Positions 18,487-29,935 of a stretch of DNA of 50,590 nt are shown piece after piece (position 1 is the first letter of the stretch; the number at the start of each line of letters is the position of its first letter). The notes under the pieces are model-generated. The model searched no databases. It had not been told where the DNA came from and saw only the letters and a list, made by a program, of their open reading frames with translations. Where the stretch lies: positions 1-50,590 of the forward strand of contig WGER01000025.1 of the NCBI GenBank assembly GCA_015492645.1, given 5' to 3'. This DNA comes from Nitrospirota bacterium (lineage in GTDB: Bacteria > Nitrospirota > Thermodesulfovibrionia > Thermodesulfovibrionales > JdFR-85). The position numbers were made by a program, and so were the translations under genes.

Positions 18487-20658
18487 TTATTTCTTCACCA
18501 TTTCCTGCTCTACTTTTGCCTCATCGTATTGCCTGTCTTCTTCTTCGTCAAGTTTTAGTCCCATAGGTCTCCTGGTAAGGAACCTCTCTTTTGCCTCTTT
18601 TATATGGGTGGTCAGGACAATCCCACCAGTGGCACATACAGCGGCACATTTACCACAACTGACGCATTGATCCGGATATTTTAACCACGGCAGATAGATA
18701 CCCTCCTTTTCCGTTTTATACATCTTCAAACCATGAACAATGCAGGCATCAACACAATCAGAACAACCCTCACACTGCTCTGGTACAACCCATGGCAACA
18801 CCTCTTTACCGATTTTTACAGCCTCTACCGGACATACCAGAAAACAGATCTTACACTTGGTACATTGTTCCTTGTCAATAAAGAAACCCTCCGAGGTTTC
18901 TTTGACTGCATTAAATTCACACACTTTCTTACACAATCCGCAGAGTATACATTCTGATGCATCTATTCTGTAAACCCCTATCCCCTTGCAAACATTTGCC
19001 CTACAGAACTTGTCTTTGATGTGCTCTTCATACTCTTCCCTGAAGTACTTTAATGTGCTAAGCACAGGGTTTGGTGCTGTCTTGCCAAGCCCGCAAAGGG
19101 AACCTTCCTTTATATGGTGGGCAAGTCTTTCAAGTCTCTCTAAATCAGCCTCTTCACCCCTGCCAGATGTTATCTTCTCTAATATTTCTAACATGTGATA
19201 GGTACCAATTCTACAGGGTGGACATTTACCACAGGACTCTCTATGGGTAAAGGAGAGAAAAAACCTGGCAATGTCTACCATACAGTTATCTTCATCCATA
19301 ACCACCATACCTCCTGAACCCATCATCGAGCCTGCTTCAATAAGGGAGTCAAAATCGACAGGGAGATCAAGGTGTTCCTCAGACAGACAACCTCCTGAAG
19401 GGCCTCCTGTCTGCACCGCCTTAAATCTCCTGTTATTCAGTATTCCTCCACCAATGTCAAATATGATTTCCCTGAGGGTGATCCCCATGGGAACTTCAAT
19501 AAGCCCTGTGTTTTTGACCTTTCCTGTAAGGGCAAAGACCTTTGTGCCTGGGCTACCTTCTGTGCCTATACTCCTGTAATGCTCTGCACCGTAGAGAATT
19601 ATATATGGCACCTGGGCAAAGGTCTCTACATTGTTAATAACCGTGGGTTTACCCCAGAGCCCCTCTATTGCAGGATAGGGTGGTCTGGGTCTGGGGAATC
19701 CCCTGTAGCCTTCAATGGAACTCAACAGGGCAGTTTCTTCTCCGCATATAAACGCACCTGCTCCCTCACGAATATACACCCAGAAGTTTAGTCCTGTGCC
19801 AAGAATATCCTCACCTAATAGCCCCAGTTCTTCCGCCTGGGCAATCGCGGTCTTCAGATTTTTTACTGCCAGTGGATACTCGTGGCGCACATAAATGAAA
19901 CCATATTCTGCACCTACAGCATATCCACATATTATCATCCCCTCTATTACGCTCTGTGGGTCACCTTCCATGATTGATCTGTCCATGAATGCACCAGGGT
20001 CTCCCTCATCTCCATTGGCAACAACAAACTTTATGTCTGATTCTGTGTTTCTTGCGACTTCCCATTTGATACCGGTGGGAAAACCGGCACCTCCACGCCC
20101 TCTTAATCGAGAGGACTTTATCTCATCTATCACATCATCTGGAGACATGCCAGAGAGGACCTTTTCAAGGGCTACATATCCGTCTCTTTCTATGTAATGA
20201 TAAATATTACATGGGTCTATGGTGCCATTATTCCTCAAGACCACCCGCATCTGTTTTTGGTAGAAAGGTATCTCCTTCATCTGTTTGGCAGGTTCCATGG
20301 TAATTGTATGCCTGTATAAAAGCCTTCTGACAGGGGTCTCTTTAAGGCTCTTCTGTACAATCTCATTCACATGTGCAGGCTTCACCTTTTGGTAGAAATA
20401 TCCTTCTGGTTCTATCCTCATCACCGGGCCTTTTTGGCACAGTCCCTGACAGCCTGTTCTTATCACCTCGTACTCATCTGCGCTGGTCTGATATGCCTTT
20501 TCAAACAAATCTGCAATTTTCCTTGATCCCATGGCGCTACAGGCCGTACCACAACAGATGGCTATTTTCTTCTTTTTAGTAAGAGATGCCCTTTTTAGTT
20601 CCTCTCTCAGTCTTCTCAGTTCATTCAGATTGTTGATTCTCTCTCTGATCTGTACCAC
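18487..20658 (-). CDS. NADH-binding NuoF-like iron-sulfur flavoprotein fused to ferredoxin domains
   Basis: 723 residues. Order: thioredoxin-like 2Fe-2S domain (C36, C40, C70, C74); NuoF FMN/NADH core with GRGGAGFPTG at 187-196 and NGDEGDPGAFMDRS at 215-228; SLBB region; the NuoF 4Fe-4S site at C476, C479, C482 and C522; then four ferredoxin-type CxxCxxCxxxC motifs starting at C570, C599, C629 and C665. This is the arrangement of HydB/NfnB-like subunits that pass electrons between NAD(P)H and ferredoxin-like partners. GTG start with GGGAGG upstream. It directly follows the CODH-like gene, so it is probably that protein's electron outlet or source. The four ferredoxin motifs exceed the usual two. 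Confidence 0.9.
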   Translation of the reverse strand: MVQIRERINNLNELRRLREELKRASLTKKKKIAICCGTACSAMGSRKIADLFEKAYQTSADEYEVIRTGCQGLCQKGPVMRIEPEGYFYQKVKPAHVNEIVQKSLKETPVRRLLYRHTITMEPAKQMKEIPFYQKQMRVVLRNNGTIDPCNIYHYIERDGYVALEKVLSGMSPDDVIDEIKSSRLRGRGGAGFPTGIKWEVARNTESDIKFVVANGDEGDPGAFMDRSIMEGDPQSVIEGMIICGYAVGAEYGFIYVRHEYPLAVKNLKTAIAQAEELGLLGEDILGTGLNFWVYIREGAGAFICGEETALLSSIEGYRGFPRPRPPYPAIEGLWGKPTVINNVETFAQVPYIILYGAEHYRSIGTEGSPGTKVFALTGKVKNTGLIEVPMGITLREIIFDIGGGILNNRRFKAVQTGGPSGGCLSEEHLDLPVDFDSLIEAGSMMGSGGMVVMDEDNCMVDIARFFLSFTHRESCGKCPPCRIGTYHMLEILEKITSGRGEEADLERLERLAHHIKEGSLCGLGKTAPNPVLSTLKYFREEYEEHIKDKFCRANVCKGIGVYRIDASECILCGLCKKVCEFNAVKETSEGFFIDKEQCTKCKICFLVCPVEAVKIGKEVLPWVVPEQCEGCSDCVDACIVHGLKMYKTEKEGIYLPWLKYPDQCVSCGKCAAVCATGGIVLTTHIKEAKERFLTRRPMGLKLDEEEDRQYDEAKVEQEMVKK

Positions 20659-20676: not shown

Positions 20677-22518
20677 TTATCCCAGAATCTTTCTTGAGTC
20701 CTCTATATGTTCAAGGACATGGTCGAACATCCTTTCAATCTTTTCTTCAAAGACTATTGAGCCCTTAAATCTTTCATGTAATGTCTCTTTTAATATCTCG
20801 TTGACATCTTCTGAAGCCTTAACAGGAGATTTGCCTCCCATGATTACCGGTATCCCTGAAGCAGCAAAACCAAATGCCATTGTGATCTCTTTCTCTGTCA
20901 CCCACTCAGGTGACAACACAACTGCAGGAAGGCTACCGAGATCTCCCTGAGCATATTCACTGACCAATCTGGAGAGTATCATGAGAATCCTCGCATTCTC
21001 ATCACAACTTCCCATATGAAGCAGTGGAGGAACACCTGTTTCACTGAAGAGACGTTTCAACCCGGGGCCAGCCTCTTCCAGGGCGGATTCCATCACTCCT
21101 GTACAGGCAAAAGCAGACGATGCACAACCCGTACTCAGTATCAAGATATCTTCATTTATGAATTCTCTTGCAAGATATGTATGAAGTGCAGTGGCAAGTA
21201 GTCTGGGGTTGTCGCAACCTACGATACAGGCTATTCCCTTAATCTCTCCTTCTCTGAGAGCCATTGCCAGGTTTTTATAGAAGACTGAATTTCCAATCTT
21301 TTCAAGATAGTCCTCTGTGTATCCTGTCTGAAAGGTGAACCTGGCTGTAACCCGTTCTCCCATTCCTGTCCTGTTTGGAAAGTTCTCAATCGCCATCTCT
21401 AATATCCTTTTAGCGCAATCCACAGCCACTTCTGGTTCAAATAAGACTTTCTCAGTACCAGGATAGTGGGCCTTGGGAGATGTGGATATCACCTTTGTAT
21501 GAAAATTGTAGGATATATCTACAATACTGGGCATAATACATTGTGTATCAAGTACAACTGCATCAACTAAACCGGTTAGCAGACAGACCTCTTGGTTGGT
21601 CAATCCGCCTATGTGTGGAGTCCCGTGTTTCATGCAGAAGATGTTTGAAATATTTACGCCCTTTGCTCCCTTCGATTTTGCAAACTCAATAATATCAGGC
21701 ATAGAGGCTACATGTAATAAACTCCATAGCAGTACTGGATTATGTCCTGCCACCACAATATTAACCTCATCTTCTTTCAGAATTCCAAAACCTGCCTCAG
21801 ATGTGAAGTTAGATTGACCAAAAACAATGTCTGTTACAACAGCAGTGATCAATGAACCACCCCACAGGGCTGCCAAACTGACTCTTAATGCTGCATGTAC
21901 TATCCGATCGAGTTCATGCTCTACACCAAAAGAACACCGGTATACGGCCTCAGACAGTTCCCTCTCTATACCCTCTGGTAGAATGTGCCACTGTCTCCAT
22001 CTCTGGAGTGTCTCTTCTGGAACATGCATCAAGTACCAGGATTCTCCATGTTGTCTGCCAATCTCCGACAGTAATGCCTCTGCCACTGCAGTAGATGTAA
22101 CTTTTACATCATTTCTTTCAGGTCTGATGTTCAACTGTTCTGCAAGTTGGTATAGTTTATCAGTATCCTTTATAGTCATTAATCCCGTCTCTTCATTGGC
22201 CACCCTGTATAAGGTGGATGCCATTTCTCTTGCCTGAGTAATATAAACACCTGCGCCCATGGTGGCCATCCTGAGCAGGTTTCTAGCTGCTACTGTTGAC
22301 AATCTATCCCCGCAAACTCCCTTTTCTACCCTATCTTCACTACTCTGTGTGAATCTACATGGTCCCAGATGGCAGACGCTACAGCAGGCACCCGTAGCAC
22401 CGAGGGGGCATGGTTTTATCATCTGAGCCCGATCAAAGCATGTCTCCATCCAATAGGATCTACCCCAATTAATCAATATCTCTGCATACTTGTTACCACT
22501 TAGTTTAAGTTCATCCAT
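20677..22518 (-). CDS. Atypical CooS-type nickel CO dehydrogenase homologue lacking the proton-channel histidines
   Basis: 613 residues, slightly short for CooS. D- and B-cluster cysteines are present (C37 and C45; C46, C49, C54 and C69). All six C-cluster ligands align: H259, C295, C327, C435, C465 and C505, and the catalytic Lys is K543. The region that in CODH-II of Carboxydothermus has H93, H96, H99 and H102 reads Y92, Q95, E98 and S101 here, and the loop after C295 is about six residues shorter. It can probably hold the Ni-4Fe-5S cluster, but ordinary CO/CO2 turnover is doubtful. The ATG has CAGGAG upstream. LarB lies just upstream and the NuoF-like protein just downstream. The alignment was made from memory of the Carboxydothermus sequence. 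Confidence 0.85.
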   Translation of the reverse strand: MDELKLSGNKYAEILINWGRSYWMETCFDRAQMIKPCPLGATGACCSVCHLGPCRFTQSSEDRVEKGVCGDRLSTVAARNLLRMATMGAGVYITQAREMASTLYRVANEETGLMTIKDTDKLYQLAEQLNIRPERNDVKVTSTAVAEALLSEIGRQHGESWYLMHVPEETLQRWRQWHILPEGIERELSEAVYRCSFGVEHELDRIVHAALRVSLAALWGGSLITAVVTDIVFGQSNFTSEAGFGILKEDEVNIVVAGHNPVLLWSLLHVASMPDIIEFAKSKGAKGVNISNIFCMKHGTPHIGGLTNQEVCLLTGLVDAVVLDTQCIMPSIVDISYNFHTKVISTSPKAHYPGTEKVLFEPEVAVDCAKRILEMAIENFPNRTGMGERVTARFTFQTGYTEDYLEKIGNSVFYKNLAMALREGEIKGIACIVGCDNPRLLATALHTYLAREFINEDILILSTGCASSAFACTGVMESALEEAGPGLKRLFSETGVPPLLHMGSCDENARILMILSRLVSEYAQGDLGSLPAVVLSPEWVTEKEITMAFGFAASGIPVIMGGKSPVKASEDVNEILKETLHERFKGSIVFEEKIERMFDHVLEHIEDSRKILG

Positions 22519-22519
22519 G

Positions 22520-23275
22520 TTATCTCCTGTTAAGATTGTTTATTTTATGAGCCAGGTAACCTGCACCAAAACCATTATCGATATTGACTACTGAAACCCC
22601 GGGAACACATGTATTGAGCATTCCGAGCAAAGCAGCCAGGCCGCCAAGGCTTGCACCATAACCTATACTTGTTGGTACAGCAATAACTGGCACATCAACT
22701 ACTCCACCCACAATGCTGGGTAAAGCACCCTCCATACCAGCCACCACTATTAACACATTTGCGGATCTTATGAGGCCTATGTTGTTGAAAAGCCTGTGGA
22801 TCCCCGCTACCCCAACGTCGTACAATCGCTCCACCCTGTTGCCGAGGACCTCAGCAGTAACTGCTGCCTCCTCTGCTACCGGTATGTCAGACGTTCCCGC
22901 TGATATAACAAGAATCGGTCCTCCTCTTCTCTTCTTTCTTCTCTTCCTGATTACTATCATTCTTGCCTGGTCAAAGTATATAGCCTCTTTAAAATGTGTC
23001 TTTACCTGCTCAAAGACCTCCTTCTGGGTTCTGGTAACCATGATACAGTTGCCCGTCCTGTAAAGGGCACTAATTACTGAGATGATCTGTTCAGAAGTCT
23101 TTCCTTCACCAAATATTACTTCAGGGGCACCTCTTCTGATACTTCTATGATGGTCTACTTTTGCAAAGCCCAGATCTTCGTAGGGAAGTACCCTCAACCG
23201 TTCAACTAATGTATTTAAATCAATTTCTTCCTTCTGAAACTTTTTAAGGAGATCTCTCAGTATTAACTCATCCAT
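22520..23275 (-). CDS. larB: LarB, pyridinium-3,5-biscarboxylate mononucleotide synthase
   Basis: 251 residues, full length. The C-terminal half is PurE-like: VVAGMEGALPSIVGG followed by PVIAVPTSIGYGASLGG. LarB carboxylates and hydrolyses nicotinate adenine dinucleotide, the first step toward the nickel-pincer nucleotide. The N-terminal RRGAPEVIFGEGKT stretch is typical of LarB rather than PurE. It overlaps larE by eight bases and ends one base before cooS, so pincer synthesis is locked to the CODH-like gene. Confidence 0.92.
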   Translation of the reverse strand: MDELILRDLLKKFQKEEIDLNTLVERLRVLPYEDLGFAKVDHHRSIRRGAPEVIFGEGKTSEQIISVISALYRTGNCIMVTRTQKEVFEQVKTHFKEAIYFDQARMIVIRKRRKKRRGGPILVISAGTSDIPVAEEAAVTAEVLGNRVERLYDVGVAGIHRLFNNIGLIRSANVLIVVAGMEGALPSIVGGVVDVPVIAVPTSIGYGASLGGLAALLGMLNTCVPGVSVVNIDNGFGAGYLAHKINNLNRR

Positions 23276-24107
23276 CTTCCCTTAACACCTCATTCATTGA
23301 ACCTGTTCTATAACCCTTAAGATCCATTGTGACATATTGAAACCCTATACCCTTCAGGGTATCATGTATCAGGATCCGCAACTGCTGGTCAATAAAAAGT
23401 CTGGTCATTTCTTCGGGTATAAGTTCCAGCCTTGCAATTCCATTATGAGACCTGACCCTGAACTGTGTGAACCCCAAGGATTTCAGGAACTCCTCCGCCC
23501 TCTCAATCTTTTTCAGTTTCTCCTCTGTTATCCACTCACCATAGGGGATCCTTGACGACAGACAGGCAAAGGTGGGTTTATTCCATGTCTTGAGACCCAG
23601 TTCCCTGGACAGTTCTCTGATCTCCTGCTTTGTCAATCCGACCTCTGCCAGAGGGCTTCTAACACCAAGTTCCTGAGCGGCCTTCCTGCCAGGTCTGTAA
23701 TCATGGGTGTCATCATAATTGGATCCGTCCAGGATGTATTGAATGTTGTTGTCAATGGCTATGTCCCTTATTCTGGTAAAGAGTTCTCTCTTGCAAAGGT
23801 AACACCTGTCCGGTCTGTTCTCAGAAAAGCCTGAAACTTCAAGTTCATTGCATAGGATCACGACATGTCTTACACCGATGGATCTCGCAATCTCTAAGGC
23901 CTCTTTAAATTCAGCCTCTGGATATGTGGGAGACTTGGCAGTTACTGCTATCACTCTCTCTTCAAGGACCTCCCTTGCCACCCTCAATAGAAAGGTACTG
24001 TCTACCCCTCCAGAGAATGCAATACAGACACTTCCCATCTCTCTCAACAGGGCCTGCAGTTTCATAAACTTCTCATCTGTACTCAATCTCTCAACAGTCT
24101 TCTCCAT
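23268..24107 (-). CDS. larE: LarE, sulfur-inserting pincer-nucleotide synthase
   Basis: 279 residues. The N-terminal PP-loop SGGVDS (32-37) adenylates the carboxylate substrate. Three cysteines are placed to serve sulfur transfer: C102 and C105 (RCYLCK) and C182 (ACLSSRIPYG). C182 aligns with the sacrificial Cys of Lactobacillus LarE. Having three suggests the type that holds a 4Fe-4S cluster and acts catalytically, which is inference. It is downstream of the LarC-like gene and overlaps larB. Confidence 0.92.
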   Translation of the reverse strand: MEKTVERLSTDEKFMKLQALLREMGSVCIAFSGGVDSTFLLRVAREVLEERVIAVTAKSPTYPEAEFKEALEIARSIGVRHVVILCNELEVSGFSENRPDRCYLCKRELFTRIRDIAIDNNIQYILDGSNYDDTHDYRPGRKAAQELGVRSPLAEVGLTKQEIRELSRELGLKTWNKPTFACLSSRIPYGEWITEEKLKKIERAEEFLKSLGFTQFRVRSHNGIARLELIPEEMTRLFIDQQLRILIHDTLKGIGFQYVTMDLKGYRTGSMNEVLREDG

Positions 24108-24120
24108 TTTTGCCTCCTGA

Positions 24121-24627
24121 TTATATTTTGAGAGTAATTACATCAGTGGATACCTGGAAGGATTTTTCTATTTCATTCCTCAATTCATCAAGGGATTTAT
24201 AATCATCAGACATTTCATTAATAATCCTCTGGAGCATCACGAGAAAGTCATGTTCAACATCTACAGAGATCGGTTCCGATGGGTCCCCTATCACCTTGAA
24301 TCGACACTTGAAATTCCTGCTTTTCCCATTACATAGGACATTTATCGTCTTTTCCAGGAAACTCACCTCAAAAAAGACATGGGTGGTAGAAAGTCTGTGA
24401 TAACCTGAAACCTTAAGTTCTCTTACAAGAAAATCTGCTATATCCTGTTCATTCTTCTGATTAGTGTCTATTATAAGAATATTTCCTGGACGGTTCTTCT
24501 TCGTAATGGTGGGGATGAGTTGTACATTATATGCCCCGATCTCTATAAGTCTCTCCACCGCATATCCAAGGATTTCTCCAGTAACATTGTCTATCTGTGC
24601 AAAGATGAGAATACCTCTTTTTTCCAC
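24121..24627 (-). CDS. LarC C-terminal-domain protein (nickel insertion), stand-alone
   Basis: 168 residues. IDNVTGEILGYAVERL (12-27) followed by KKNRPGNIL matches the C-terminal domain of LarC (IDDMTGEILGY..., KKNRPG), which inserts nickel into the pincer nucleotide in a CTP-dependent reaction. The N-terminal LarC1 part with its metal-binding residues is missing here and is not encoded nearby. GTG start with AAGGAGG at good spacing. It sits just upstream of larE, completing a B-E-C set. It may be a minimal LarC or may work with a LarC1 elsewhere. Confidence 0.75.
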   Translation of the reverse strand: MEKRGILIFAQIDNVTGEILGYAVERLIEIGAYNVQLIPTITKKNRPGNILIIDTNQKNEQDIADFLVRELKVSGYHRLSTTHVFFEVSFLEKTINVLCNGKSRNFKCRFKVIGDPSEPISVDVEHDFLVMLQRIINEMSDDYKSLDELRNEIEKSFQVSTDVITLKI

Positions 24628-24671: not shown

Positions 24672-25100
24672 TCAGAGAAACTCCTCTGCTGAACTGTCGA
24701 AGACACAAACGCCACTGCTATTAAAGATCTCTCTTAAAGAAGAAGGTATCAAAGAGACAAACTCCTTCAATCCATCTGCAGTCAGGACTTCCTTCAGAGA
24801 TGCGAAGACCACCTTAATGGCCTTTTCCGCAGCAGCCCTGTAAGGATAGTTCCCAGCCCTTTGTAGTAAACCTATACAATCTTCACTGGAGGTGTTGTTC
24901 TCTTCTCTTCTAATCTCAGAGACTTGCCAGAGTGATTGTAATTCCTCTGGCAGAATTGAATTGACTCTATGGATATCTCTTTCTGAAAGAAAAACCTTTA
25001 TACAACCGAAGACCGTGAGGACGGTCTTTTTTGCACTCTCCAGATAACAGTAATCACCTAAAACCATTACCCTCTTTAAATACTCACCGGCATTCTGCAT
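24672..25100 (-). CDS. DUF2267-like two-repeat helical protein
   Basis: 142 residues made of two similar helical repeats: AKKTVLTVFGCIKVFLSERD...LPEELQSLW (about 24-58) and AEKAIKVVFASLKEVLTADG...IPSSLREIF (about 89-127). This is the pattern of DUF2267, a family of unknown function related to helical bundle proteins. Three of its cysteines lie in the first half. It lies between the 590-residue protein and the LarC-like gene and may be an adaptor or chaperone of that system. Function not known. Confidence 0.6.
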   Translation of the reverse strand: MQNAGEYLKRVMVLGDYCYLESAKKTVLTVFGCIKVFLSERDIHRVNSILPEELQSLWQVSEIRREENNTSSEDCIGLLQRAGNYPYRAAAEKAIKVVFASLKEVLTADGLKEFVSLIPSSLREIFNSSGVCVFDSSAEEFL

Positions 25101-25109
25101 ATCTATAGA

Positions 25110-26882
25110 TCAGAAATCGAGACCCTTCATAATATCTGAGGCCATTTGAGTGGCCTTTTTTAATGAAGGTGCTGGCATTGAAATAATAACATTTGCCACC
25201 TCTGCTGCCCTTTCTGCTGCCTCTTTGGGATCCATACCCATTGCTGCTGCAACACAGGCACAAACCACCACATCCATGGAACACGCGCCTGAATTAAGCA
25301 GTTCTGTGACAGCCATTCCTACAGAAGCGATGGCATCCATTGTCTCTTTATCACCCTTCAACAGTGCCTCAGGTGCTACCTTTGCAAGGAGATTCTCCCA
25401 TCTGTGAACCTTTCCGTCGATTTTAACCTCAACGTCAATATAAGCATCAAAGGCAAAATACTTCTGAGCAAACTTATGTTTTCTTCTACCGGCACCTGGC
25501 CGAACCTCTAAGAACCGGATATATTCTATATTTTTCCCGAGCATGGTGCTCATCTTTTTTGCAACTGCCTCTGCTATCGCATTTATATGGCGTGTTTGTA
25601 CATCTCTGAGCAGGTCCTCAAATGTCTTACCCTCTTTCATCTGTGTATAGGCATATATAGCCCTCCTGGTAATAGCATTCGTCATTGCCGGCTCTGTTGC
25701 TCTTATAATTGCATCTGTCAACGGGCCACGTTCCAAATACTCTGCACGGCGAGCCAGAATGTTAGTCGCCACAATTGCGTCTTCCTTCTGAAAGTAATCA
25801 TCCAAAGCCTTTTGTAATATAGATACTATCTCTTCCTCGGTTGCTCCTCTTCCATACAAATACAGTGCAAGTGAAGGTGCCGTAACCCAATGGTTCAGAG
25901 GAAGTAGTAGAGGCCCCCCTGCCCTGCCCACACCTAACGCAGCGCCTTCCTTGATTATTGAACATATCTCATTGAACATAATCATACCCACCACAGAAGG
26001 AGTTCCAGAGTCTTTTAATATTATAGCGAGATCCCCGATCACCTTTGCAGTCTTGAGTTCTTCATTCGTGCCCCTTATATGGATTACCTCTGGCATAGCG
26101 GCCTCTTGTACTGCTGCTTCAGCAACGACCTCTGGTGTGCGTGTTACCAAAAACTCGCCATATTCCTCTCCAACATATGCATCTGGATGTATTATCTCCA
26201 GTGTGGCAGCAGTTGCAAGCAATGCTGACATCCATCTGCAGGGTCGCATACCGGCTGATTCGTATGCCTTTAACATGGCCCTTGTGCCGATCCGAGCCAG
26301 TTTCTGACCCAATTTGGGAAAGAGATGGTCCTCACCTATTGCAGAATGCCCCACAAAGGGGCTACCACCGATACCCAAAGGCAGGAGAGTTGGATCGAAT
26401 GGTGCGAGATGTTCCTTCTCAAGGGCCTGATAGATTGCTAAAGTGGCCGCAAATCCGGATATCTTGTTGTTCAGTTTCTCTGTGGGGATTGATGAGACGC
26501 GACCTGAAGGAATCCCGGCGGCCATCCTTGCCACAGCCCCGAGTTTTCTGTTTGGGCAGGGGATCCCACATTGTACGTTCACGCCGGCCCAGTAAAGGAG
26601 GGTTGCCGTTGCCAGGGCAGCATTGGCTGGGTCTGCACCACATTCTATCAACCTCTTAACAGCCTTTCTGGCTATCTCATCAACATCTGTGAATGCCTCA
26701 TTACTGACTTCTAATTTCAGTTTTTTTCCTTTTTTGATCTCCTTAGCAATAATATTGGCAGCCGCCCATATGCCTAAATTAAAGACCCCCCATCCACCAA
26801 GCATTGCATCAAACTTTTCAGTGGTCAAAAAATCAGGTTTGGCAGTAACAGCCCTCAAGGTGGCTACAATCTCTTTTTCCAT
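25110..26882 (-). CDS. Unrecognised 590-residue protein in the nickel/pincer block
   Basis: I do not recognise this family. It is long, soluble-looking and well packed, with no frame breaks and a good ribosome binding site (AAGGAGTG). Striking conserved-looking stretches: NVQCGIPCPNRKLGAVARM (102-120), LGIGGSPFVGHSAIGEDHLF (169-188), AGMRPCRWMSA (210-220), VGRAGGPLLLPLNHW (318-332) and GACSMDVVVCAC (532-543). There are eight Cys and at least nine His that could bind metal or cofactor. It has no obvious LarA motifs. Its place directly upstream of larC2-larE-larB makes it a candidate new acceptor enzyme for the nickel-pincer nucleotide; this is hypothesis, not identification. Confidence 0.85.
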   Translation of the reverse strand: MEKEIVATLRAVTAKPDFLTTEKFDAMLGGWGVFNLGIWAAANIIAKEIKKGKKLKLEVSNEAFTDVDEIARKAVKRLIECGADPANAALATATLLYWAGVNVQCGIPCPNRKLGAVARMAAGIPSGRVSSIPTEKLNNKISGFAATLAIYQALEKEHLAPFDPTLLPLGIGGSPFVGHSAIGEDHLFPKLGQKLARIGTRAMLKAYESAGMRPCRWMSALLATAATLEIIHPDAYVGEEYGEFLVTRTPEVVAEAAVQEAAMPEVIHIRGTNEELKTAKVIGDLAIILKDSGTPSVVGMIMFNEICSIIKEGAALGVGRAGGPLLLPLNHWVTAPSLALYLYGRGATEEEIVSILQKALDDYFQKEDAIVATNILARRAEYLERGPLTDAIIRATEPAMTNAITRRAIYAYTQMKEGKTFEDLLRDVQTRHINAIAEAVAKKMSTMLGKNIEYIRFLEVRPGAGRRKHKFAQKYFAFDAYIDVEVKIDGKVHRWENLLAKVAPEALLKGDKETMDAIASVGMAVTELLNSGACSMDVVVCACVAAAMGMDPKEAAERAAEVANVIISMPAPSLKKATQMASDIMKGLDF

Positions 26883-26913: not shown

Positions 26914-27615
26914 TTACACCCAAAATTGTTCTTCTGGAGGTGCTGCAAAGTCCGCACCTATAAACTTTTGAGTCTTATAACAGTAAACACCGTATCTGCA
27001 GAACAGGAAGGCCCCTGTGAATACTATAACCGTTAAACGTAATAGTTGTGGCCAACTGGAAGAGTTCTTCAGAATCGAGATTACTGTAGCAGCCCCGATG
27101 GCAATCCCCAGCAGGTTCAGTATAAGAACCGAGTACTTTGTTACTTCCATTCTTGTCTCAGTGGTTATCTCTGACACCTTTGCGATCGTGAACCAGAAGA
27201 ACCATGTGGCAAAAAAAGCCGCCAATCCTATAAAGAGTATAGTGAGAGCAAAGGCGGTAGAGGGACCTTCACCGATAAAGAAATGTGTGAGAATACTTAA
27301 CCCAGCACACGCAACTGCGAGTGACCCAGATATCCTGACACCCTTGTAATGCCAGCCCATATTCTTTATGCCTTCCATGCATGCCTTCAGCAATATCAAG
27401 GCTCCAACATATGTAATAACAGGAGGGAAGGCAAGAGAAGGTGGAAAAACGTACGGTTCTCCCATCATTTTGTGAATATACTGTCCTGCCCAGTCCGGAA
27501 TCCATAGCCCCACAATTGCAGGGATCGCTCCAATCTCTAACCATTTGACCACCTTTGCCTTTGGCCAGCGAGGCTTAATTGTACCTGGTACAACCTTTTT
27601 CTTATATATAGCCAT
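26914..27615 (-). CDS. Polytopic membrane protein, about six segments
   Basis: 233 residues. Hydrophobic segments lie near 28-47, 64-83, 96-115, 121-143, 159-180 and 190-207. The N-terminus is very basic (MAIYKKKVVPGTIKPRWPKAK) and should stay cytoplasmic. A GGAGG site precedes the ATG. No transporter or respiratory family is recognised. It lies between the FMN-barrel proteins and the 590-residue protein, so it may be a membrane anchor or substrate porter of that system. Confidence 0.8.
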   Translation of the reverse strand: MAIYKKKVVPGTIKPRWPKAKVVKWLEIGAIPAIVGLWIPDWAGQYIHKMMGEPYVFPPSLAFPPVITYVGALILLKACMEGIKNMGWHYKGVRISGSLAVACAGLSILTHFFIGEGPSTAFALTILFIGLAAFFATWFFWFTIAKVSEITTETRMEVTKYSVLILNLLGIAIGAATVISILKNSSSWPQLLRLTVIVFTGAFLFCRYGVYCYKTQKFIGADFAAPPEEQFWV

Positions 27616-27634: not shown

Positions 27635-28045
27635 TTACTTTGGAGGCCCTTGATCTCTCCATCTTGTGGACTCGAACTTCAGTATGCTCTCATAGGGTAA
27701 CACATCGAGCCTCAGACCTGCCTCAGGCCCTGGTTTGGTGCAATATATCTCGTTTACCTCAACAATTAGTGTATTCCCTTCAAGTCGGGCATTTCCTTTA
27801 AATTGATACGCTGCCCGAATGCTTCCCAACCCACCTGGTCCAAGTGCAACCCTTGGATTTTCTTCGATATTTTGTTTAATTTGTTGGACCTGTGCATCAG
27901 TGAGTTGAAATTTTACTATGTTATCTCCTTCCACTTTTGCCTTATCAACTACTATTACAGTGGGGAATCCCTTTTTTGTTGCTGTACCGATATGTGCTCC
28001 AAGACCCTCCAACCAGTTTCTCATTCTTGGTGTTAATTTTGCCAT
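27635..28045 (-). CDS. Small pyridoxamine-5-phosphate oxidase-like (FMN split-barrel) protein
   Basis: 136 residues. The N-terminal half reads like a PPOx-type flavin barrel (GAHIGTATKKGFPTVIVVDK, then ENPRVAL). The C-terminal half (FKGNARLEGNTLIVEV) continues the barrel. It may bind FMN or a related cofactor. An AGGAGG site precedes the ATG. It is a smaller relative of the two 159-residue proteins just upstream, but is not obviously a duplicate of them. Substrate unknown. Confidence 0.6.
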   Translation of the reverse strand: MAKLTPRMRNWLEGLGAHIGTATKKGFPTVIVVDKAKVEGDNIVKFQLTDAQVQQIKQNIEENPRVALGPGGLGSIRAAYQFKGNARLEGNTLIVEVNEIYCTKPGPEAGLRLDVLPYESILKFESTRWRDQGPPK

Positions 28046-28080: not shown

Positions 28081-28560
28081 CTAAAGAACCTTCTTGCCGG
28101 CCTCTTCTGGCTTATAACTATAACATTCTTCTACTTTCATTATTATGACTCCCCGCTGGACCAGTTTGGGTGGCTTGATATCAGGTGGCACCTCTGAGGG
28201 TGGTTCTTTCTCCGCCCAGTTACCCCATTCCTCAAGGACTTCCTTTGCTACAGCACCATGAAATTCATAATCTTCTGGCAGCCCTTCCTGCATTATTGTT
28301 GTAGGACCTCTGAATGCCCAGGTTCGTCCCTTGACAGGATGAGCAATTGTGATAACACCAATTGGATTCTCAAGAAGGTTCGCCCTCGTCTTTTGAGCAA
28401 ACATATCTGCAATCACGATATACTCATCTTTGAAAACACCCACAAACCTCTCGGCCACTGTATTGGGCTTTCCATCAGCACTGCATGTAGTCAAATGAAC
28501 AACAGCACCTCCACCTCCTATAACAGATAGTGCATCTTTCATTTCTTCTGTCAATTTCAT
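28081..28560 (-). CDS. FMN split-barrel protein, twin of the next gene upstream
   Basis: 159 residues from ATG 28560, chosen for its AAAGGAGGTGATG site; the frame continues upstream without a start signal. The PPOx-like core is clear: VVHLTTCSADGKPNTVAERF, YIVIADMFAQKTRANLLENP, GRTWAFRGP. It shares roughly 45 percent identity by eye with the 28586-29065 product and has the same length. It is probably a flavoprotein acting as a dimer or hetero-oligomer with its twin. Cys at about 26 replaces Ser in the twin. Confidence 0.8.
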   Translation of the reverse strand: MKLTEEMKDALSVIGGGGAVVHLTTCSADGKPNTVAERFVGVFKDEYIVIADMFAQKTRANLLENPIGVITIAHPVKGRTWAFRGPTTIMQEGLPEDYEFHGAVAKEVLEEWGNWAEKEPPSEVPPDIKPPKLVQRGVIIMKVEECYSYKPEEAGKKVL

Positions 28561-28585
28561 CTCATCACCTCCTTTCAAAGCAAAA

Positions 28586-29065
28586 TCAACTAATTCTCTT
28601 GCCAGATTCTTCCGGGCTATATGTGTAACACTCTGCAACTTTCAAGACTATTACGCCTCTCTGAGCAACTACAGTAGGTCTTATCTCTTCAGGTAGTTCA
28701 GAGACTGGTTCTATTTCATCCCAGTTGCCCCATCTTCTCAAGACCTCACCTGCTGTTACACCCTGAAAGTTGTAATTGTCAGGAAGTCCCCATTCAATAT
28801 GTCCACAGGGACCTCTCAATGCCCATGTCTTGCCTTCACTTGGATAGGCAATGGTTACAACACCAATCCTGTTCTCGTTCAGATTAATCTTCGTCTTTAT
28901 TGCAAAGAGGTCAGGTATGAGAATGAACTCATCCTGATAAACATCAGTGAACAGTGAGGGCATAAGGTTACACTTACCATCAACACTGCTTGTGGTTAAG
29001 TAAACAAACACATCCTGTGGATCTTTGATTTTAAGAGCATCAACTATTTCTTTTGGCAGTTTCAT
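28586..29065 (-). CDS. FMN split-barrel protein, first gene of the nickel redox operon
   Basis: 159 residues from ATG 29065 (AAGGAGG site). Split-barrel motifs: VFVYLTTSSVDGKCNLMPSL, FILIPDLFAIKTKINLNENR and GKTWALRGPCGH. Both twins end in a QRGVIxxKVxECYxYxPEExGK segment, a shared C-terminal signature. The promoter with a palindrome at 29087-29122 is just upstream. It is the likely first gene of the transcript running to the DsrE-like gene. Role unknown; F420, FMN or heme binding are all seen in this superfamily. Confidence 0.8.
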   Translation of the reverse strand: MKLPKEIVDALKIKDPQDVFVYLTTSSVDGKCNLMPSLFTDVYQDEFILIPDLFAIKTKINLNENRIGVVTIAYPSEGKTWALRGPCGHIEWGLPDNYNFQGVTAGEVLRRWGNWDEIEPVSELPEEIRPTVVAQRGVIVLKVAECYTYSPEESGKRIS

Positions 29066-29086
29066 TTCAATTCCTCCTTTCTTGAT

Positions 29087-29122
29087 GTTATCATAACATC
29101 GTATATCATGATATAACAAGTT
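29087..29122 (-). promoter_or_regulatory. Promoter and palindromic operator of the nickel redox operon
   Basis: On the minus strand TTGTTA (29119-29114) and TATGAT (29095-29090) form a -35/-10 pair with an 18-base spacer. A perfect 14-bp palindrome TATATCATGATATA (29102-29115) fills the spacer, and GTTATCATAAC (29087-29097) overlaps the -10. The 11-mer TATAACAAGTT at 29112-29122 recurs inverted upstream of the GntR gene, so this is the likely operator of that regulator. Confidence 0.65.
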
Positions 29123-29152: not shown

Positions 29153-29935
29153 TCAGGAATAATTGAAAACTCTCGTCTTAAATCTATAGAGATCCCCTCT
29201 CATAACAGAGGCGATCCAACCGCAGGGCTTGTCGTCTCTTCTGTATGCTATCATATCAACATAAAATGCGGCGCTACCTACAGCAACATTGAGGTATTTT
29301 GCCTCCTGGGGTCTGATCTTGGTGGCTTCGATTGAGACATCCACATATTCCCTACAGATATGACATTTTCCAGCAAGTACATCAAATAACTCTCCCATTT
29401 GGCTGAGGTCCTGTAGTTTCAGTTTTTTGATAAAACCCTCGTTACATTCATCAATTATCTTGCAATATTTACAAACAATGAATTTCTTTTCAAGAATATA
29501 GGGCTTGTTATCTGCAAGGAAGAGGCGTTTAATTACAAAGACCTTTTCGTTTACCGGAATCTGTAACTTTTCTGCTATCAACTGTGAAGCCTCAAGGACC
29601 TTAACGTTTAAAACCTTTACTTCAGGCTTCAGGCCCCTTTCTGCCATGTCCTCATAAAAGTCAGGTACTTTTATCATTATCTGGTCAATCTTTGGCTCTG
29701 CCACAAACGTGCCCTTTCCTCTGATGGTGTAAAGGAATCCTTCATCGATCAGTTCGCGAAGTGCTAGGCGGACAGTGGTTCTACTAATGTTATATCTCCT
29801 ACAGAGTTCTGCTTCTGAGGGTAGCATCTGGTGAGGTTTGTAATGGCCTTCCTTTATCCATCGATAAATTATGTCTTTTAACTGCCGGTATGCAGCAACA
29901 GGTGATTTTTTATTTATTGTACTGTCTGTTATCAT
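29153..29935 (-). CDS. GntR/HutC-family regulator with cysteine-rich UTRA domain
   Basis: 260 residues. The N-terminal winged helix (about 12-80) has LPSEAELCRRYNISRTTVRLALRELIDEG. The C-terminal UTRA ligand domain (about 95-255) contains C155-x2-C158, C164, C191-x2-C194 and C238, an arrangement fit for a metal ion or iron-sulfur cluster rather than the sugar or amino-acid ligands usual for HutC regulators. It lies upstream of, and on the same strand as, the nickel redox operon and shares an 11-base sequence with its promoter. It probably represses that operon and itself in response to redox state, metal or a small molecule. The ligand is unknown. Confidence 0.88.
   Translation of the reverse strand: MITDSTINKKSPVAAYRQLKDIIYRWIKEGHYKPHQMLPSEAELCRRYNISRTTVRLALRELIDEGFLYTIRGKGTFVAEPKIDQIMIKVPDFYEDMAERGLKPEVKVLNVKVLEASQLIAEKLQIPVNEKVFVIKRLFLADNKPYILEKKFIVCKYCKIIDECNEGFIKKLKLQDLSQMGELFDVLAGKCHICREYVDVSIEATKIRPQEAKYLNVAVGSAAFYVDMIAYRRDDKPCGWIASVMRGDLYRFKTRVFNYS

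Follow-up and report, generated by a model that had tools for sequence, protein, structure and literature searches.

A candidate non-LarA nickel-pincer enzyme and its LarC2-only partner in Nitrospirota and other phyla

Which protein uses the nickel-pincer nucleotide (NPN) in a genome that encodes its biosynthetic proteins and no LarA? NPN was discovered in lactate racemase and, in the passages of the examined literature that were available, all characterised users belong to the LarA family. A non-LarA user has been expected and not identified; those passages infer it from genomes, notably of cyanobacteria, that carry larB, larC and larE without larA, and they name no candidate. Our literature search, which left subscription journals and preprints largely out of scope, found no publication naming a non-LarA NPN enzyme. 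The locus considered here lies in a stretch of 50,590 nucleotides from a Nitrospirota bacterium (contig WGER01000025.1, hereafter the window), where a 590-residue protein of an unnamed family, P590, is encoded beside lar genes. It had been put forward in the original prediction as the best local candidate for a new pincer enzyme, and our analysis supports it as the best candidate, without amounting to proof. We consider it probable that P590 is a non-LarA nickel-pincer enzyme and that a protein consisting of the LarC2 part alone (LarC2-only) is its partner, where cofactor binding, the roles of individual residues and of LarC2, and the hydride chemistry are inferred. The use of the pincer pathway by P590 is itself deduced from gene neighbourhood, with no binding, metal or activity data. 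The pair offers a concrete and conserved candidate for the unidentified second NPN user, in phyla other than cyanobacteria, and makes the question testable.

In the window, P590 belongs to an operon-like run on a single strand, from a GntR regulator gene (29935) to a NuoF-like gene (18487), in the order GntR, three PNPOx-like proteins, a hydrophobic 233-aa protein, P590, DUF2267, LarC2-only, LarE, LarB, CODH/prismane-family protein and NuoF-like protein (Table 1). The neighbours that had been called LarB and LarE are both above the curated cut-offs (NF033503 and TIGR00268, respectively). The neighbour that had been called LarC fails as a complete LarC, having only the LarC2 part (NF052512, 54.6 bits; PF01969 positions 246-358 of 375), and the full-length LarC of this genome is found on another contig (G000:C56:29179-30309). 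Compared to its counterparts at other P590 loci, the CODH-family protein of the window has only ~49% identity, and it is less conserved than P590.

Table 1 Features of the P590 locus in the window. Column Remarks gives matching families, scores and conservation.
Feature	Position	Strand	Remarks
GntR/UTRA transcriptional regulator, likely operon regulator	29153..29935	(-)	PF00392, PF07702; conserved
PNPOx-like protein	28586..29119	(-)	paralogue of 28081..28638 protein (~53% identical)
PNPOx-like protein	28081..28638	(-)	PF01243; conserved neighbour
PNPOx-like (flavin split-barrel) protein, third of trio	27635..28045	(-)	weak PF01243; conserved neighbour
233-aa hydrophobic, probably membrane protein	26914..27615	(-)	no family; hydrophobicity judged by eye; conserved neighbour in Nitrospirota only
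P590	25110..26882	(-)	590 aa, unnamed family; candidate nickel-pincer-nucleotide enzyme
DUF2267 protein	24672..25100	(-)	PF10025; conserved neighbour in Nitrospirota, Bacillota and the Actinomycetota locus
LarC2-only protein	24121..24627	(-)	NF052512, PF01969; paralogue of LarC C-terminal domain; constant partner of P590
LarE, sulfur insertase of pincer cofactor	23268..24107	(-)	TIGR00268, 337.7 bits
LarB, first enzyme of pincer cofactor synthesis, cluster-specific copy	22520..23275	(-)	NF033503, 298.7 bits
Ni-CO-dehydrogenase/prismane-family catalytic subunit, divergent	20677..22518	(-)	PF03063; TIGR01702, 418.9 bits, below cut-off of 478; Nitrospirota loci only
NuoF-like flavin/iron-sulfur electron-transfer protein	18487..20658	(-)	PF01512, PF10589; neighbour in Nitrospirota loci

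The P590 reading frame starts with ATG and has an AAGGAG ribosome-binding site directly upstream. Comparison to four relatives resulted in pN of about 0.10 and pS of about 0.8 (saturated), while the close pair L007 and L011 has dN of 0.011 and dS of 0.37. These ratios establish P590 as a genuine gene on which purifying selection acts strongly. Its description as unrecognised has held: profile search found no Pfam family, NCBIfam gave only a chance-level match, and sequence search of the PDB found nothing with P590 as a single sequence or as a profile. Placement in any family of Pfam, NCBIfam, PHROGs or the PDB was rejected because the only matches were at chance level, namely Ssp4 (0.031), phrog_6208 (0.001, across 55 residues) and a designed helical repeat. 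A clear match to a cofactor-free family would have refuted the original prediction, and there was none in these four collections. AlphaFold models were made of P590 from the window and of L021, which is 54% identical to it and the most divergent sequence in the alignment used for the profile comparison. Both models have pTM of 0.84 and mean pLDDT of 78-79, and both consist mostly of helical elements in identical order. Foldseek comparison to the PDB returned no match at E <= 0.001 for either. As far as these tools, moderate-confidence models and a library restricted to the PDB allow, the predicted fold seems unlike LarA and unlike any solved structure.

The same conclusion with respect to LarA was reached by sequence profiles. 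The PF09861 (Lar_N) model, which detects LarA in both control genomes used and in 29 genomes of Nitrospirota, has no match in P590 or anywhere in the window's genome. Alignment of P590 to LarA by hhalign has a probability of 0.3% and an E-value of 0.18; as a control, the LarA profile recovers LarA structures at 1e-117. P590 as a LarA homologue is hence rejected on profile-profile comparison and fold search, the kind of check that had been proposed for it, and lies outside the LarA superfamily (PF09861), having neither Lar_N homology nor profile or fold similarity. What P590 does share with that superfamily of NPN-dependent 2-hydroxyacid racemases and epimerases is its company of LarC, LarE and LarB, with equal slot and order on rhizobial plasmids, and invariant histidines and lysines that might serve nickel ligation, acid/base catalysis and tethering. 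It differs in lacking any sequence relation, in being a mostly alpha-helical protein of 590 aa without a LarA match in Foldseek, and in keeping a separate LarC2-only partner, which the LarA operons examined do not have.

LarA had been called absent on local grounds, and this is true for the whole genome, rated 100% complete, in which LarA was not found. Neither was it found in 12 of the 15 other bearers of P590; the remaining three have it, which weakens the case for P590. To argue from the absence of LarA that P590 must be the user is nevertheless insufficient, and such absence is weak evidence by itself because Nitrospirota genomes generally have LarB and no LarA: LarB is above cut-off in 325 of 396 genomes (82%), compared to 29 for LarA and 10 for P590. 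Since most genomes with LarB have neither LarA nor P590, it appears that most Nitrospirota use the pincer pathway for some other purpose.

More informative is the gene company that P590 keeps across lineages. Homologues were found in 27 genomes or plasmids of Nitrospirota, Nitrospinota, Bacillota, Actinomycetota and Rhizobiaceae. Those with 54-89% identity are from Nitrospirota, Nitrospinota, Bacillota (Desulfovirgula) and Actinomycetota, and those with 37-40% identity comprise a second paralogue in two Nitrospirota genomes and copies on plasmids of Rhizobium tropici CIAT 899, R. sp. CCGE531, CCGE532 and CB3090, and Ciceribacter thiooxidans. The distribution is rare and patchy (10/396 in Nitrospirota, 5/24 in Nitrospinota, 2/299 in the Bacillota draw and 1/246 in the Actinomycetota draw). 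Contigs of 24 of the 27 bearers reach far enough downstream for the pairing to be counted, and in 23 of these loci, across five phyla, a LarC2-only gene lies downstream of P590 on the same strand at a spacing of 3 to ~1170 bp. The exception is L016, with no LarC2 beside P590 in the available stretch. With two PF01969 matches in the 2.43 Mb of the window's genome, such adjacency would be expected by chance in approximately 1 in 2000 per genome. Loci obtained after the pairing had been proposed agree with it: G690 (Bacillota) has LarC2, LarB and LarC, and G731 (Nitrospinota) has LarC2; G730 is cut by a contig end. One of the 10 Nitrospirota bearers, G328, has a truncated P590 and a LarC2 reading in two frames (L067, G328:C45, 7772-9682), a decaying pair that is still adjacent.

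P590 is also genomically linked to LarB, LarE and LarC, at least one of which is close to it in the Bacillota, Actinomycetota and rhizobial loci and in most of those from Nitrospirota. The P590-LarC2 pair of L012 and of Nitrospinota has no lar genes nearby, and LarB is elsewhere in the genome. We searched for LarB in 19 genomes, consisting of 18 P590 bearers and G001, a control of the same genus without P590. LarB is above cut-off in 17 of the 18 bearers, and the remaining one (G403) has a LarB fragment at a contig end. The occurrence of P590 in many genomes lacking larB or larE would have counted against the original prediction; no bearer without LarB was found among the 18.

The LarC2-only protein retains the GE..G and KK.RPG motifs of LarC2. 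Its closest known counterparts are the LarC2 domain of LarC (structures 6BWO, 6BWQ and 6BWR) and MK0293 (3C19), 6BWO and 3C19 being its relatives in the PDB. Unlike LarC, it stands alone and lacks the TTTxGxR motif. It is no shortened replacement of LarC, since both occur together: a full LarC coexists with it in the window's genome and in the rhizobial and Bacillota loci. By inference, its probable role is to load P590 with the cofactor or, as a subunit, to hold the cofactor.

The strongest single argument for P590 as an NPN enzyme is the rhizobial operon, in which P590, LarC2-only, LarC, LarE, LarB and a HoxN/HupN/NixA nickel transporter are encoded without LarA. On plasmid pRlX3 of R. ruizarguesonis the corresponding order is LarA-LarC-LarE-LarB, and therefore P590 and LarC2 take the place of LarA before the same biosynthetic cassette. 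LarB of the rhizobial operon is 37% identical to LarB of the window and 53-54% identical to LarB on other rhizobial plasmids; judged by such identities, the lar genes of this operon look local. As they appear to be of local type, P590 and LarC2 were probably joined to lar genes at least twice. The LarB sequences encoded in the Nitrospirota clusters group separately from the resident LarB of these genomes, and several bearers have a cluster LarB alongside a resident one of another lineage. The window's genome has both, and its congener G001 has only the resident copy and no P590. LarB of the Bacillota and Actinomycetota clusters falls in the Nitrospirota cluster clade (support 99/96), with a few other sequences inside and other phyla thinly sampled. 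In R. tropici CIAT 899 and CCGE531, LarE is annotated as two hypothetical proteins (L115:18607-19413 and L130:15544-16350). With LarE annotated in two pieces there but intact in CCGE532, these two strains may have an impaired operon. The occurrence of the operon in culturable Rhizobium makes a direct test by co-expression and mass spectrometry possible.

Conserved residues were taken from an alignment of twelve P590 sequences with identities of 37-86%. H179, H232, H331, K113, K136, K140 and K290 are invariant. The protein had been described as bearing cysteines and histidines; three of its nine histidines are invariant and none of its eight cysteines is. Since 86 positions are invariant overall, the histidine and lysine set is not unusual by itself and, as a pattern in aligned sequences, is suggestive only. 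In LarA, by comparison, the thioamide link is made through a lysine, nickel is bound by a histidine, and one or two histidines are catalytic (PMC12611868). In the two AlphaFold models, K136 and K140, as well as E239, G242, G323, P324 and P328, which are also conserved, are in or at low-confidence segments, and the three invariant histidines are within ~7 residues of such segments. Conserved loops that are poorly predicted are as expected for an active site missing its ligand, an inference for which distances between residues were not measured.

A working scheme can be put together from these elements. LarB, LarE and full LarC would make NPN, and the LarC2-only protein would either load or hold it in P590 or be a subunit of the enzyme. 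The cofactor would probably be tethered to an invariant lysine, with K136 and K140 of the P-T-x-K-x-x-N-K loop as the best candidates; one of the three invariant histidines may complete the coordination of nickel and the other two may act as acid/base. A hydride could then pass from some small organic substrate to NPN and back again, giving a redox-neutral isomerisation, that is, LarA-like chemistry on an unrelated fold. We regard isomerisation as the most likely net reaction and a net redox step as less likely. A more ambitious proposal, that P590 is the first of a new class of nickel-pincer enzymes, novel in fold, having a holoenzyme of two parts of which one derives from LarC2, and catalysing something other than 2-hydroxyacid racemisation, is tentative, and we lean slightly against asserting it in full. 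Compared across lineages, the neighbours of P590 give no common hint of the substrate. P590 is immediately next to a URO-D family gene in the Nitrospinota loci and in L012 of Nitrospirota (L012, L016, L127, L128), a hint towards one-carbon or corrinoid metabolism. On the rhizobial plasmids, MalY/PatB and amino-acid ABC transporter genes are near P590; on CB3090 they are more than 12 kb away and on the opposite strand.

The net redox step deserves consideration as a variant that overlaps with our main reading, in which P590 would act as a dehydrogenase or reductase drawing on its flavin, iron-sulfur or CODH neighbours. Most Nitrospirota loci with enough downstream sequence have CODH/prismane-family and NuoF-like genes downstream and PNPOx-like genes upstream, but all of these are absent near P590 in Nitrospinota, L012 and Rhizobiaceae and hence are not core, so that we judge this variant unlikely without setting it aside. 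The same loci bear on whether P590 is unrelated to NPN altogether, either assisting the nickel CODH next to it, as partner or in its maturation, or being a bystander in an island of nickel genes. In the window ~2.6 kb separate P590 and the CODH-family gene, and CODH and LarC both concern nickel; however, P590 and LarC2 persist without a nearby CODH in L012, Nitrospinota, Bacillota, the Actinomycetota locus and Rhizobiaceae, and the operon of the latter has only lar and nickel-uptake genes. A CODH partner is disfavoured by these loci, and we find an explanation without NPN very hard to credit.

It is also conceivable that P590 and LarC2-only handle the cofactor rather than catalyse, as a carrier, modifier, repair or insertion system for another enzyme, either the PNPOx-like neighbours or an unlinked protein. 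LarC2 is a domain of a nickel-inserting protein, so the pair could belong to maturation, and the loci of Nitrospirota and Bacillota and that of Actinomycetota all have PNPOx-like neighbours. Nonetheless, the pair occurs without PNPOx genes in Nitrospinota and L012, and the Rhizobium operons contain no other unassigned enzyme besides P590, LarC2, LarC, LarE, LarB and the nickel transporter. Moreover, LarA in published expression systems needs no such factor beyond LarB, LarC and LarE (PMC11796402). A purely cofactor-handling role therefore seems improbable to us, and we retain P590 as the putative catalyst.

Several further observations concern relatives of these genes outside the main loci. 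The second P590 paralogue of Nitrospirota (~39% identical; L065:7601-9385 and L066:7715-9502) adjoins a TCP-1/cpn60-family chaperonin gene. In L066 it has neither LarC2 nor lar genes nearby, which weighs against the main reading, and in L065 URO-D and NMT1-type ABC transporter genes are alongside. On plasmids of Pseudosulfitobacter and Sulfitobacter (L135, L136), LarE and LarB form a pair flanked by TRAP-transporter and sugar-acid genes, and no LarA or LarC is annotated within 7 kb of it. In the window's genome, the neighbours of the resident LarB (G000:C29:92196-92804; 6080-6832 in L094, which is G000:C29:86000-99000) are hypD and hypF, genes for the maturation of NiFe hydrogenase, and a gene for a multihaem cytochrome c. 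The congener G001 (L095) has a similar arrangement around its resident LarB, judging by the sizes of the open reading frames.
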